NCBI RefSeq assembly: GCF_900104355.1
Contig: NZ_FNIY01000001.1
Span: forward strand, 310,001-374,000
Length of the DNA stretch: 64,000 nucleotides
Source of the DNA: Phyllobacterium sp. OV277
Lineage (GTDB): Bacteria; Pseudomonadota; Alphaproteobacteria; Rhizobiales; Rhizobiaceae
Reading direction: 5' to 3'
Part shown: positions 38,572-42,446 of the stretch, in pieces
How the letters are laid out: each line of letters begins with the position of its first letter
Position numbering within the stretch: position 1 is the stretch's first letter
Made by a program: the position numbers and the translations under genes
The notes under the pieces: model-generated
Seen by the model: only the letters and a program-made list of their open reading frames with translations
What the model was told of the DNA's origin: nothing
Databases searched by the model: none

Positions 38572-38580
38572 AAGCCTTTT

Positions 38581-38976
38581 CTATTTGCCGGTCATTTGGA
38601 TCAGCTGAATCAGGTTTCCGCATGTATCGTCAAACACCACCATCCGGACTGGTCCGGCATCCATTGGCTCGACAGTGAACGATACGCCGAGGTCACGCAG
38701 CCTGCGATACTCCGCATCGATATCATCCACCTGAAACGAGGTTGCCGGGATACCATCCGCGACAAGGGCGTCCTTGAAGGGCTTGGCTGCCGGATGTTCG
38801 CTCGGCTCCAGCAGCAGTTCTGTTCCCTCCGGGTTTTCGGGCGAAACGACCGTCAGCCAGCGATGTTCGCCGCCAAGGGGGATATCGTGCTTCACGGTGA
38901 AGCCAAGGATTCGGGTGTAGAAGTCCAAAGCCTTTGATTGATCGTCTACCAATACACTGGTGACATAAATCCTCAT
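38581..38976 (-). CDS. VOC-family (glyoxalase-like) protein
   Basis: A 131-residue protein with two beta-alpha-beta-beta-beta units of the vicinal oxygen chelate fold (VTSVLVDDQSKALDFYTRILGF and FQVDDIDAEYRRLRDLGV, ending DDTCGNLIQLIQ). Family members bind a metal and act on thiol adducts, or bind drugs. The start at 38976 has AGGAGG upstream. It is 13 bases downstream of an ArsR-type repressor gene on the same strand, so the pair forms a self-regulated operon. Similar ArsR-VOC pairs are common in rhizobia; the substrate is unknown. Confidence 0.88.
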   Translation of the reverse strand: MRIYVTSVLVDDQSKALDFYTRILGFTVKHDIPLGGEHRWLTVVSPENPEGTELLLEPSEHPAAKPFKDALVADGIPATSFQVDDIDAEYRRLRDLGVSFTVEPMDAGPVRMVVFDDTCGNLIQLIQMTGK

Positions 38977-38989
38977 GGTGGTTTTCCTC

Positions 38990-39280
38990 CTAAAGATGTT
39001 TGCGAAGCCATAGAGCCGCTGCCGCCTGCAACGGAATGAGATCGATGGAATGAATTTTGGTTCGCCCAGACCATGAAACATGGAGCAGTCCAGCTTTCTC
39101 AAGCGTATCGAGATGCTGGGTGATCGCCTGCCGGGACAGGGCTTCCCCATCCTCCGCAACCGACAGCGCACAGATGTGGAACAGCGATTGATCGGGGCGC
39201 TCGCGTAATCGGTCTATGATCCTGCGCCGCGTCGGGTCGGCAATCGCCTTGAAAATCCGATCGAGTTGCTCATCATCCAT
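38990..39280 (-). CDS. ArsR-family winged-helix repressor
   Basis: A 96-residue regulator. DDEQLDRIFKAIADPTRRRIIDRLRERP and EALSRQAITQHLDTLEKAGLLHVSWSGRTKIHSIDL are the ArsR/SdpR winged helix. The CxC metal motif of arsenic sensors is absent (LFHICALSV only), so it probably senses something other than arsenite. The ATG at 39280 was preferred over an upstream TTG. A perfect 18-bp palindrome ten bases before the start is the probable autoregulatory site. The VOC gene follows. Confidence 0.9.
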   Translation of the reverse strand: MDDEQLDRIFKAIADPTRRRIIDRLRERPDQSLFHICALSVAEDGEALSRQAITQHLDTLEKAGLLHVSWSGRTKIHSIDLIPLQAAAALWLRKHL

Positions 39281-39290
39281 GCCGAATAAA

Positions 39291-39308
39291 TGCAATAATA
39301 TTATTGCA
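39291..39308. promoter_or_regulatory. Operator of the arsR-VOC operon
   Basis: TGCAATAATATTATTGCA is a perfect 18-bp palindrome immediately upstream of the arsR-type start. ArsR repressors bind such AT-rich 12-2-12-like palindromes at their own promoters. Confidence 0.75.
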
Positions 39309-39525
39309 TGTCAAGGGATCGGTGGAAGAGAGAGCGGATAGTTGCGCGTCTGTCGAACCACGCATGATGGATTTTGCAATTCATGGATAAAAGGGCGCCT
39401 ATGGCAGCCTCATCAAGAAGCTTGCATATCGTAACATATAGAGTTACATGAAATGCGATAACGGCTGTCTTCCACCCCCTGCTGGCCCTTTTACCGCAGC
39501 GGTGAAGCCTCGAACGGAGATGCAG

Positions 39526-40200
39526 ATGTCATCGTTTTCCAATCCCGATATCGTTTCGGGATATGCGGCCAGAACCGCGCAACTTGTGCCGGGCCTTCAC
39601 GACCTGCACCGGATGACTGGTCTGCTTCTGGCAGAGCGGGCTCCCGCCGATGCGCGCGTTCTGGTTCTCGGGGCTGGCGGAGGAATGGAACTGGGCGTGC
39701 TCGCGCAGATGCAGCCGCACTGGCGTTTCGATGGCGTCGACCCCTCTGCCGAGATGCTTCAACTGGCCAGAACCAATCTCGGTGCGCAGGCCTCTCGCGT
39801 TGCGTTCCACGAGGGCTATATCGACAGTGCGCCCGAGGGCCCATTCGACGCCGCAACCTGTCTTTTAACACTTCACTTCCTGCCGGAAGAGGAACGGCGT
39901 CAGACGCTGCGGGCGGTCCAGCAGCGACTGAAGCCCGGCGCGCCATTTGTCGCCGCGCACCACAGTTTCCCCAATGAGGGGGCGGAATTGGACAAATGGC
40001 TCGCACGCTACGCGGCGTTCGCGGCGGCAACTGGGGCTCCTATATCCCTGACTGCGAACAGTATCAGAACCATGAAGGAGCGATTGCCTGTTCTTTCTCC
40101 CGCTATGGACGAAACCATCCTTCGCCAAGCGGGATTCTCGAATATCGAGCTATTCTACGCCGGTTTCACATTCAGGGGCTGGGTCGCTTACAAGAGTTGA
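39526..40200 (+). CDS. Class I SAM-dependent methyltransferase
   Basis: A 224-residue methyltransferase. Motif I is VLVLGAGGGMELGVLAQ, motif II has the acidic GVDPSAEML and motif IV DAATCLLTLHFL, all in the usual order for the Rossmann-like fold. KPGAPFVAAHHS and the C-terminal FYAGFTFRGWVAYK complete it. The substrate is unknown. The start at 39526 follows CGGAGA at five bases; the frame is open 26 codons further. A small inverted repeat GTAAC-N7-GTTAC (39431-39447) lies upstream and could be an operator. Confidence 0.88.
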   Translation: MSSFSNPDIVSGYAARTAQLVPGLHDLHRMTGLLLAERAPADARVLVLGAGGGMELGVLAQMQPHWRFDGVDPSAEMLQLARTNLGAQASRVAFHEGYIDSAPEGPFDAATCLLTLHFLPEEERRQTLRAVQQRLKPGAPFVAAHHSFPNEGAELDKWLARYAAFAAATGAPISLTANSIRTMKERLPVLSPAMDETILRQAGFSNIELFYAGFTFRGWVAYKS

Positions 40201-40224
40201 CCGCGGACTGCACCCCACCTCCTT

Positions 40225-40350
40225 CCGTCATCCTCGGGCTTGACCCGAGGACCCACAGCTAAAGAGTTCCATTGAACTTGATTGCTCGTGCTTTCAGATC
40301 ATGGGTCCTCGGGTCATCCTCGGGTTAAACCCGAGGACTGAGGATGACGG
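40225..40350. repeat. Palindromic intergenic element, copy 1
   Basis: Outer arms CCGTCATCCT (40225-40234) and AGGATGACGG (40341-40350). Inner arms GACCCGAGGACCCA (40242-40255) and TGGGTCCTCGGGTC (40302-40315) flank a 46-bp core (40256-40301). A degenerate copy of the outer unit of the second element follows at 40404-40460. The flanks match copy 2 in direct orientation, but the core is inverted. Confidence 0.9.
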
Positions 40351-40488
40351 AGTGGGGGTGATGCAAGGGAGCCAAGTTCTGCAACCTTTGTTCTGCAACC
40401 TTCGCGATTAGCGTTGCATCCACTCAAGCCCCTCATGGTTGTTATGTCGAACCGCGAACCAACAGATGTGCAAATCTCTCTTTAATGA

Positions 40489-40812
40489 TTAGCGCTTTAA
40501 AGGTGGCTTGCCCTCAGCATATTCAAACGCTTCGCCCGGCCCCTGATCGAGGAAAAGCAGTGGCGGGTTATCTCCCACCTGCTTTATGTGGCTGATGATA
40601 TGAACCCGGTTTTGCTTATCCTTATGAACTGAATAAACAAGTTCGCCATCCAGCCCTTTGTCTGCCCGCTTGCTCTCGATCCTGAACCGCATGGTCATCG
40701 CCAACAGCCCCAGCACAAAGGCAGGCGGAATGATCAGCCATATTGCCTTGATCAAATCAGGTGAGGATTGAAACGTATCAAGCAGATGAGCCCAGAAATT
40801 GTAGTCGGTCAT
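40489..40812 (-). CDS. Hypothetical protein with one membrane helix
   Basis: A 107-residue protein with one membrane helix (LIKAIWLIIPPAFVLGLLAMTMRF, about 20-43) and a charged C-terminal half (ELVYSVHKDKQNRVHIISHIKQVGDNPPLLFLD, ending KPPLKR). I do not recognise the family. The ATG at 40812 has GGAG five bases upstream, which supports real translation. It sits between the two copies of the palindromic element and just downstream of the possible 6S-like RNA on the same strand. Confidence 0.65.
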   Translation of the reverse strand: MTDYNFWAHLLDTFQSSPDLIKAIWLIIPPAFVLGLLAMTMRFRIESKRADKGLDGELVYSVHKDKQNRVHIISHIKQVGDNPPLLFLDQGPGEAFEYAEGKPPLKR

Positions 40813-40880
40813 GCGCACTCCCTTGTTTCACGAGGAAAGCGGCCACCCGAGGATTATCCTCTGGTGACCGGGGAGCTAGA

Positions 40881-41055
40881 AAGTCGCACACAGACGACCG
40901 CCACGGCCTTTAAGCCGAAGCTCTGGACATACGCCGAGGCCTCCCCGGCCATAGGGCTGAGGAGGTGCCTTTGCGGTCGACACCGACCGCTGTATGCGAG
41001 GTTTCTAGGCCCCAAGACCAATCCATTTCGACCGGTCTCAACGCAGACCATAGTG
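40881..41055 (-). ncRNA. Possible structured small RNA, 6S-like
   Basis: No protein frame here makes sense, yet the minus strand can fold into a long, mostly paired rod. The ends pair (GACCG with CGGTC, extended by wobble pairs outward), GGCCU pairs with AGGCC further in, and GCAUAC pairs with GUAUGU around an apical region with the hairpin GCGGTCG-GTGT-CGACCGC. An open internal bulge between paired arms and a length near 175 nt fit the 6S RNA that binds RNA polymerase. A CATAAT -10-like box lies upstream. This is a structural guess by eye; another ncRNA or the leader of the next gene is possible. Confidence 0.42.
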
Positions 41056-41124
41056 GGAAAATTATGCAGGTGGAAGGGGTTAGAGTGTCGGTTTGCAGGG
41101 TTATTAGTGGGTGGGGTGGGGTGT

Positions 41125-41181
41125 GTGGTTCGTGGTTCGACAAGCTCACCATGAGGGGCTTGGGTGGATGCAACGATAATC
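41125..41181. repeat. Left arm of large inverted repeat
   Basis: 57 bases containing GTGGTTCGACAAGCTCACCA and the following ATGAGGGGCTTGGG. It is the reverse complement of 41443-41499 with only two mismatches (55/57 by eye). A related but degenerate unit is at 40404-40460. Confidence 0.9.
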
Positions 41182-41250
41182 ACATAGATTGCAGATCAAA
41201 ATGGTTGCAGCGCAAAGGTTGCAGAACCTAACTCCCTGCACCCCTCTTTC

Positions 41251-41375
41251 CGTCATCCTCGGGCTTGACCCGAGGACCCATGATCTGAAAGCGCGAGCAA
41301 TCAAGTTCATTGGAACTCTTTAGCCGTGGGTCCTCGGGTCATCCTCGGGTTAAACCCGAGGACTGAGGATGACAG
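41251..41375. repeat. Palindromic intergenic element, copy 2, with inverted core
   Basis: Same left flank (CGTCATCCTCGGGCTTGACC) and right flank as copy 1 in direct orientation, and the same 14-bp inner arms (41267-41280 and 41327-41340). The 46-bp core between them (41281-41326) matches the reverse complement of the copy 1 core at 43 of 46 positions. It sits at the centre of the larger inverted repeat 41125-41499. Confidence 0.9.
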
Positions 41376-41442
41376 AGAGATGAGAGCTATAGGATGACGG
41401 AGTGGGGAGTGATGATGGGGAGCCATAGTCTGCAACCTTTGC

Positions 41443-41499
41443 GATTAGCGTTGCATCAACCCAAGCCCCTCATGGTGAGCTTGTCGAACCACGAACCAC
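41443..41499. repeat. Right arm of large inverted repeat
   Basis: Reverse complement of 41125-41181 with two mismatches. Together the arms and the palindromic element between them form a 375-bp nested palindrome. Confidence 0.9.
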
Positions 41500-41600
41500 G
41501 AACAACACTCCACCAACCCTCTCCGCAAAATGGGAGAAGAGCGAAACCACAGCGCTAAAAGCAGGAAGCGGAGCATTGGCCCCGCTTGCTGTTATCAGAT

Positions 41601-42446
41601 TTAGCTCTTCAGGCGGGAATTGCAGAGGCTGTAATAGCCGCCGCCCTTCTGAATCCACTTGAGGCCGCCAAGCGTGTTGTTCTGCTTGTTGGCATAATAC
41701 TGTTCAAGGCATGTATGCATACGGGCCTTGCCAGCGCTTTCAGTGGAGTATTTGGCCGAAACGGCCTTCGGGAAACCAACGCCCGCTGGAGCTGCCGTCG
41801 TGGCTGCTGGCGGCTCATCCTTATAGGTCGCTGTCTGAGGTGTTGGAGCAGTGTCATCATTGGTAGCAGCGGCGGAAGCGCCGGAGCTGCACTGTGCCTT
41901 GCGGAAATCATTCCACTTCTGGCCACCAAGTGTGCCTGCCGTCTTGGCAGCCTGATACTTGGCACTGCATTCCTTCATCGTCAGGCCGCCACCGGCGCTG
42001 GCATCTGCTGGAGCAGTGGCTGTCTTGGTCGGTGCGGCGGCTGGAGCAGCTGCTGCCGCATCACCACTGCACTGGGCCTTGCGGAAATCATTCCACTTCG
42101 CGCCGCCAAGTGTACCTGCCGTCTTGGCAGCCTGATACTTGGCACTGCACTCCTTCATGGTCAGGCCGCCACCTGAATCAGCGGGGGCAGCAGCTTTCGG
42201 CGCTGCGGCTGTTGTCTTGGCGGCTTTGGTTGGAGCAGCCGGGGCCGGAGCCGCAGCTGCAGGCGATGCATCCGCACATTGCGTCTTGCGGAAATCATTC
42301 CACTTCGCGCCGCCAAGTGTTCCGGCAGTCTTGGCTGCCTGATACTTGACGCTGCACTCTTTCGCCGAGAGCGCGTAGGCCGGTACAACCGTAAACGATG
42401 CGGCACCGATAATTCCGGCAAATATAAGATTCCGGGTCATAGACAT
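41601..42446 (-). CDS. Secreted protein with triplicated cysteine module
   Basis: A 281-residue exported protein: signal peptide (cut after AYA, about residue 25), then three near-identical modules of the form KECSxKYQAAKTAGTLGG plus KWNDFRKxQC, separated by Ala/Pro/Lys/Thr-rich linkers, and a fourth diverged module at the C-terminus (HTCLEQYYANKQNNTLGGLK ... LCNS). Each module has one Cys at either end, probably a disulfide. The layout resembles PsiF-type repeats. Copies 2 and 3 are also nearly identical in DNA, so the array grew recently. Function unknown. GAGGGAG precedes the ATG at 42446. Confidence 0.82.
   Translation of the reverse strand: MSMTRNLIFAGIIGAASFTVVPAYALSAKECSVKYQAAKTAGTLGGAKWNDFRKTQCADASPAAAAPAPAAPTKAAKTTAAAPKAAAPADSGGGLTMKECSAKYQAAKTAGTLGGAKWNDFRKAQCSGDAAAAAPAAAPTKTATAPADASAGGGLTMKECSAKYQAAKTAGTLGGQKWNDFRKAQCSSGASAAATNDDTAPTPQTATYKDEPPAATTAAPAGVGFPKAVSAKYSTESAGKARMHTCLEQYYANKQNNTLGGLKWIQKGGGYYSLCNSRLKS
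41890..42364 (-). repeat. Intragenic DNA repeats in the cysteine-module gene
   Basis: Two 104-bp copies at 41890-41993 and 42070-42173 are exactly 180 bp apart and differ at about seven positions; a more diverged copy ends near 42364. They encode the repeated cysteine modules and could expand or contract by recombination. Confidence 0.85.

Follow-up and report, generated by a model that had tools for sequence, protein, structure and literature searches.

How two neighboring copies of one palindromic element come to share their flanks in the same direction and to carry their cores in opposite directions is the question raised by a locus in Phyllobacterium sp. OV277. The window, that is, the whole stretch of DNA analyzed, comprises 64,000 nucleotides of contig NZ_FNIY01000001.1 and belongs to a genome of 5.33 Mb, available as a draft assembly in 26 contigs and designated G000. 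For a protein encoded nearby, the nearest named relatives come from Phyllobacterium. A total of 19 other genomes of the same genus were searched, and G008, treated here as a sister species, was the closest to G000 across one neighboring gene (88%).

The two window copies and their neighborhood

The features of the locus, in window positions, are as follows.

40225..40255, + strand: left CGTC-REP arm of copy 1, 31 bp, CCGTCATCCTCGGGCTTGACCCGAGGACCCA, located from the sequence and the 25-mer sites
40256..40301, + strand: core of copy 1, 46 bp, in the same orientation in G008 (identity 0.98)
40302..40350, - strand: variant right arm of copy 1, with five bases of the standard arm swapped for a 23-nt insert
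40354..40461, + strand: outer layer of a composite palindrome beside copy 1, on its right side only (repeats D2, D3 and I3)
40534..41157, no strand assigned: segment between the copies, in the opposite orientation in three Phyllobacterium relatives
41107..41195, - strand: composite palindrome, outer layer on the left side of copy 2 (I1, 89 nt, 88% complementary to 41429-41517)
41250..41280, + strand: left CGTC-REP arm of copy 2
41281..41326, - strand: core of copy 2, matching the copy 1 core on the opposite strand at 43/46 positions
41327..41375, - strand: variant right arm of copy 2, oriented as in copy 1
41429..41517, + strand: composite palindrome, outer layer on the right side of copy 2 (I1)

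The comparison of the two cores gave 15/46 matches in the direct orientation and 43/46 against the reverse complement, with the differences located at 40257, 40272 and 40289, and the highest match among 2000 shuffles of core 1 was 25/46. The outer flanks are direct, with 17/17 matches on the left (40224-40240 vs 41249-41265) and 35/36 on the right (40317-40352 vs 41342-41377), and the inverted match I2 (96%) extends precisely from one inner arm to the other (40241-40316 and 41266-41341). An earlier note, made from the letters alone, had described two copies with direct flanks and a core inverted at 43 of 46 positions, and this description is borne out. The inner inverted arms that it named are also present and show no difference between the copies (TGACCCGAGGACCCA and TGGGTCCTCGGGTCA), their length being 15 bp and not 14 bp. 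A nearly palindromic core, which the same note had held up against its own reading, was rejected, since the two cores match their own reverse complements at just 14/46 and 16/46 positions. The 23-nt insert of the variant right arm is mostly self-complementary.

G008 holds copy 1 at the same place and in the same orientation, with a core identity of 0.98, and on sequence comparison the copy 1 orientation is common to both species. At the position of copy 2, G008 contains a different core with a variant arm on the left, and the flip within the window pair is therefore read from the two copies themselves. In three relatives, the inter-copy segment runs opposite to the blocks on either side of it, over 40534-41157 (L089), 40598-41095 (L090) and 40631-41076 (L091); of the ten loci compared, these three have it inverted, L109 of G008 has it direct, and the other six lack any match to it of at least 150 nt. 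Arm sites were sought in the stretches of about 20 kb at L089, L090 and L091, and none was found, and at L089 matches to the outer layer adjoin the inter-copy segment. This segment is bordered by the inverted repeat I3 (75 nt, 83%), which makes a second, larger inversion of about 0.6 kb likely at the window locus.

The surroundings were also inspected for genes and RNAs. A Pfam scan of six nearby ORFs returned a methyltransferase, a helix-turn-helix protein, a glyoxalase and HlyIII, with two ORFs unmatched and no recombinase among the six. The glyoxalase, helix-turn-helix and methyltransferase genes lie in 38574-40533, for which no match of at least 150 nt was found at the corresponding place in L089-L092; in G008, only 38574-39403 of this block is unmatched. 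An ORF of 281 aa at 41601-42446 contains internal repeats and has no Pfam match. The apparently non-coding stretch 40859-40949 is conserved in relatives, and its minus strand gave a weak match to the Rfam family sRNA-Xcc1 (27.3 bits against a gathering threshold of 53, E 0.0082). A known RNA family was rejected as a candidate, the Rfam gathering scan of the window having yielded a single match, a tRNA.

Inverted dimers of CGTC-tagged REPs

Both window copies are built as inverted dimers of CGTC-tagged REPs, which are a super-family already described. In the description of Di Nocera et al. 2013 (PMC3733652), such repeats have a terminal CGTC tag (or TGTC/CCTC), a stem of 8-9 bp with complementary A-T at stem positions one and two, a loop of 4-5 nt and a CCA-type tail, and tagged REPs are known from more than 80 species. 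The elements found here consist of two 31-bp arms with the tags facing outward and the core as spacer. The arms start with CCGTCA and finish with an unpaired CCCA tail, and by inspection they contain an 8-bp stem and a 5-nt loop, TCCTCGGG-CTTGA-CCCGAGGA, the stem opening with T-A followed by C-G. DNA folding of three elements in single-stranded form predicted long hairpins, with z values of -9.7, -8.8 and -11.9.

Arm sites were searched with a 25-mer within the arm, allowing at most three mismatches, and the same pattern written backwards served as a control that gave 0 sites in G000 and G008. A total of 122 sites was obtained in G000 (62 forward and 60 reverse) and likewise 122 in G008 (59 forward and 63 reverse), with 6 + 10 forward and reverse sites in G009, 12 + 10 in G014 and none in G003. 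From each of G000 and G008, 60 element-bearing stretches were taken, covering 114/122 and 120/122 of the arm sites, respectively. The G000 stretches contain 53 inverted dimers, detected with spacers of 16-135 nt only, and 51 of these 53 spacers measure 22-90 nt, the remaining two being 121 and 127 nt. A longer core class of 119-134 nt between the same arms was observed in 8/9 stretches of G014 (L180, L182-L188) and in 3/7 stretches of G009 (L173, L174, L176).

Most of the G000 dimers (48/53) have near-symmetric 31-bp arms, both within 8 mismatches of the consensus, so that flank orientation is undefined within the element and must come from the neighboring sequence. The left arm equals the right arm in 31/48 of these standard copies and arms agree between copies as well, the mean pairwise identity of 101 arms being 0.985, with a median of 0.67, in the better orientation, for 35 cores of 43-50 nt. 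Mobilization by a Y1 transposase was rejected, as PF01797 was sought in G000 at E 0.001 without a hit, the control search being positive in 5/14 genomes. By description, the window repeats are comparable to Bru-RS and RIME of Brucella and rhizobia, which are likewise palindromic, intergenic and of similar size; CGTC repeats are missing in Brucellaceae according to PMC3733652, in the main text of which Phyllobacterium does not occur. A plasmid search beyond the Phyllobacterium genomes matched nine records (five Shinella, two Phyllobacterium, one Neorhizobium and one Roseateles), and coverage of the query stayed below 80% in all of them.

Core orientation at orthologous loci

The stretches of G000 and G008 were compared by sequence, and 38 locus pairs were picked by hand from 37/60 G000 stretches. 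Both outer flanks are matched in one orientation in 31/38 pairs, and in 25 of these a core was detected in both genomes. The seven pairs without consistently matched flanks (L014, L036, L043, L048 twice, L062 and L067) and the six in which one or both genomes lacked a detectable core (L012, L027, L050, L054, L055 and L056) were left out. A core was taken as clearly orthologous at an identity of at least 0.87 in one orientation, a cut-off chosen after the values were known. By this measure, 18/25 loci hold a clearly orthologous core, 13 in the same orientation, with identities from 0.87 to 1.00 (L011, L015, L020, L026, L028, L029, L035, L039, L041, L046, L059, L068 and L070), and five (28%) inverted, namely L022 (0.96), L033 (0.93), L038 (0.96), L042 (0.94) and L065 (0.89). 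The outer flanks are colinear at all five inverted loci, the flipped cores are 46-57 nt long, and the best match of each among the 53 G008 cores found is its own orthologue; within G000, just 6/1378 core pairs reach 0.85. The median flank identity at the 18 loci is 94.3%, and inverted matches of at least 35 nt were sought in their 36 outer flanks (8280 bases) and none was found. Core identity was 0.936 for the five flipped loci vs 0.959 for the 13 unflipped loci (P=0.27).

The remaining 7/25 loci (L013, L021, L024, L025, L031, L060 and L066) have non-orthologous or differently sized cores between two matched flanks, which indicates that replacement between loci occurs too. Five of them align best when inverted (L013 0.70, L021 0.79, L024 0.65, L025 0.74 and L031 0.66); either replacement or an old flip may lie behind them, and they were left out of the flip count. 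That count takes loci with two matched flanks only, and adding the one-flank loci changes it to 5/21. Assuming symmetric flipping, 5/18 corresponds to about 0.41 flips per element across both lineages, and it is lower than the half predicted by free switching (P=0.048). If the five doubtful loci are counted, 10/23 are flipped (P=0.339), or 9/22 without L013 (P=0.262), and the argument against saturation falls away.

Copies with asymmetric arms give a second view of orientation, relative to the element itself. The variant-arm pattern has six exact sites in G000, and with at most three mismatches it has 13 matches in G008, two pairs of which are one place on both strands. A total of 12 variant-arm copies with a core were obtained from the stretches (five from G000 and seven from G008), and three core lineages occur in both orientations relative to the variant arm. 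In lineage 1, L011 and its G008 orthologue are opposed by an inverted core at L013 (0.93, 0.91), and in lineage 3 L014 is opposed by L114 (0.96). Lineage 2 comprises L012, L110, L151, L160 and L165 against one inverted L109 copy (0.88-0.98; L012/L109 0.96, L109 vs L160 0.98), and it is found both ways round within a single G008 contig, C1. The earlier note had proposed that core orientation be tabulated against flank orientation and had named one fixed orientation everywhere as the outcome that would speak against it; both orientations were found, between species in 5/18 orthologous cores and within the three asymmetric-arm lineages. Judged from these alignments, core flipping is real and recurrent.

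The extent of the inverted stretch varies among the flipped loci. At L033 and L065 the right flank beside the arm is direct, which places the right break inside the arm. Both arm-adjacent flanks are direct at L042, where the right flank, at a distance of 50-100 nt, gives a better match when inverted (0.84-0.92 vs 0.52-0.76 direct), and at L038 the first 25 bases beyond both arms are inverted along with the core, as are parts of the flanks at L022. The left flank of L065 has diverged (0.60 direct, 0.68 inverted), and no outer palindrome is found there beyond the 31-bp arms. Some elements are nested in further inverted repeats, the outer unit GATTAGCNTTGCATC being present at 57 sites in G000 and 47 in G008, with 0 in G009. 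At L033 of G000, the left flank is similar to the right flank in reverse complement, and the left flank of the unflipped L029 matches the G008 right flank at 0.92-0.96 inverted vs 0.56-0.76 direct over 75 nt, so that both loci bear signs of one side having been copied onto the other. The 25-nt outer flanks of the 48 standard copies have a mean palindromy of 0.64 vs 0.61 with shuffled partners, and palindromized flanks are therefore single cases and not a general feature. An invertase acting at a fixed site fits such variable breakpoints less well than template switching or recombination between short repeats does.

Candidate mechanisms and known systems

The observations to be explained are the inversion of cores at orthologous sites, the variable breakpoints in nested inverted repeats and the near-identical arms around diverged cores. 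The reading that we prefer, with a probability of roughly 0.6, is that the cores flip by replication template switching between the hairpin arms and that one of the window copies was flipped in this manner. Folding of the single-stranded dimer is predicted to give a single long hairpin, the loop of which is the core, and during replication the nascent strand would switch template from one arm to the other. A switch and return inside one strand would copy an arm onto its partner and keep the arms matched, and a switch to the sister duplex would invert the loop, leaving arms and flanks unchanged and the core flipped. In the window pair, one copy would have been flipped between the 15-bp inner arms, giving shared outer flanks and opposite cores. 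Because the hairpin does not depend on the direction of the core, we infer that the flips are probably near neutral.

Homogenized arms and inverted spacers in yeast genes are attributed to template switching between the arms of inverted repeats (PMC8604942), and loop inversions are described in rRNA, bacterial rRNA included (PMC8794818). The arms of 15 bp and 31 bp exceed the length of more than 9 bp used for template switching in PMC8604942, in which the spacer inversions alter 2-5 bp, far less than 46 bp. It is rather probable that template switching accounts for the flips, the variable breakpoints and the single cases of copied flanks. Against it, recombination between arms predicts most of the same pattern, and switching within an element leaves unexplained the identity of arms between elements, for which ectopic conversion, selection or recent spread would also be needed. 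Template switching is thus inferred as the molecular step, with short-repeat recombination as a close alternative, and the idea in the earlier note that the inner arms allow the core to flip is supported with one of these two as the likely process.

Homologous recombination dependent on RecA or RecBCD, acting between inverted arms or outer layers, would likewise flip the enclosed DNA. The nested inverted repeats around copy 2, up to 89 nt at 88%, agree with it, as does the inter-copy segment of about 0.6 kb, which has the opposite orientation in three relatives and is bordered by I3. An inversion of this size is more typical of recombination and may well be its product. For the cores we consider recombination possible though unlikely, given that the inner arms in the window are 15 bp long, that L065 has no outer palindrome beyond its 31-bp arms, that both lengths are short for RecA pairing, and that recombination alone leaves the copying of flanks from side to side unexplained. 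Another view dispenses with any flip in place and holds that a second element was inserted or copied in reverse, or that an asymmetric arm was added at the other end. Cores do move, the L031 core of G000 matching G008 L130 at 0.93 and its own G008 site at 0.66, and for the window pair this view is harder to exclude since the copy 2 site in G008 is occupied by a different, non-orthologous core. At all five flipped loci, however, the orthologue is the best of the 53 G008 cores, the identity of flipped cores is not significantly lower, and PF01797 was not found in G000 at E 0.001, which makes an origin of this kind improbable.

A site-specific recombinase crossing over at the arms would give a phase-variable switch, and inverted arms around an invertible segment are indeed the layout of such switches (PMC4272514); with the doubtful loci included, 10/23 or 9/22 is compatible with full randomization. 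Such a switch is nevertheless very improbable, as the breaks differ among inner arms, 31-bp arms and outer layers with no fixed crossover, the arm occurs at 122 sites across the genome, the six nearby ORFs contain no Pfam recombinase, and 5/18 flips are fewer than free switching would give (P=0.048); nothing in the present data indicates phase variation, at a flip rate that is poorly bounded. An assembly artefact, by which a short-word assembler was misrouted through a perfect 31-bp inverted repeat, draws on the 26 contigs of G000 and on the ambiguity of perfect 31-bp arms for assembly words of 31 bases or fewer. It is hardly credible, since the perfect inner arms of the window copies are just 15 bp, the L038 core flips along with imperfect flanks, and contig C1 of G008 alone carries one core lineage both ways. 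The G008 plasmid is, in addition, on record as a complete sequence, a statement that covers the plasmid and not the chromosome.

The dimers resemble the CGTC-tagged REPs of PMC3733652 in tag, stem, loop, tail and inverted dimer form, in spacers mostly of 20-100 bp, in having no dedicated transposase, in mainly alphaproteobacterial hosts and in the placement of some dimers within larger palindromes; they differ in that spacers are flipped at orthologous sites, the available parts of that paper mentioning no spacer inversion. With the template-switch inversions of yeast genes and rRNA (PMC8604942, PMC8794818) they share the inverted spacer or loop, the recurrence and possibly the homogenization of arms, whereas there the spacers or loops span a few bases and belong to coding or RNA genes, and here the flipped cores span 46-57 nt and belong to dispersed repeats in bacteria. 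Minute inversions in hairpin loops of chloroplasts (e.g., PMC2903610) are similarly linked to palindromes, lie in non-coding spacers and occur within species as well, but they concern an organelle locus, not a family of repeats spread across a genome. Inverted repeats also bound invertible phase-variable segments (PMC4272514); the present elements differ in that their breakpoints are unfixed and that no recombinase was found among the six nearby ORFs.

Both the family of the element and the inversion of spacers between inverted repeats are known already, and limited searches yielded no report that combines them. The earlier note knew of no element described with such behavior; the element itself belongs to a described family, and a limited search of open-licence papers returned nothing on REP dimers with inverted spacers, a negative outcome that is weak evidence of absence. 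The term "template switch" is absent from the available part of a 2025 survey of REPs (PMC12306157), and little was found, in the same limited literature, on how tagged REPs evolve in place.

Tentatively, CGTC-REP dimers may be viewed as genome-wide, slowly flipping and swappable cassettes, the arms of which serve as docks for core inversion, core exchange and larger inversions of neighboring DNA. If this is true, the dimers would continually supply alphaproteobacterial genomes with small inversions and would perhaps alter transcripts at loci which they follow. The direction of a spacer in CGTC-REP dimers is a poor marker of ancestry, and about 120 near-identical arm sites per genome, together with readable loops, offer a natural assay for hairpin inversion.
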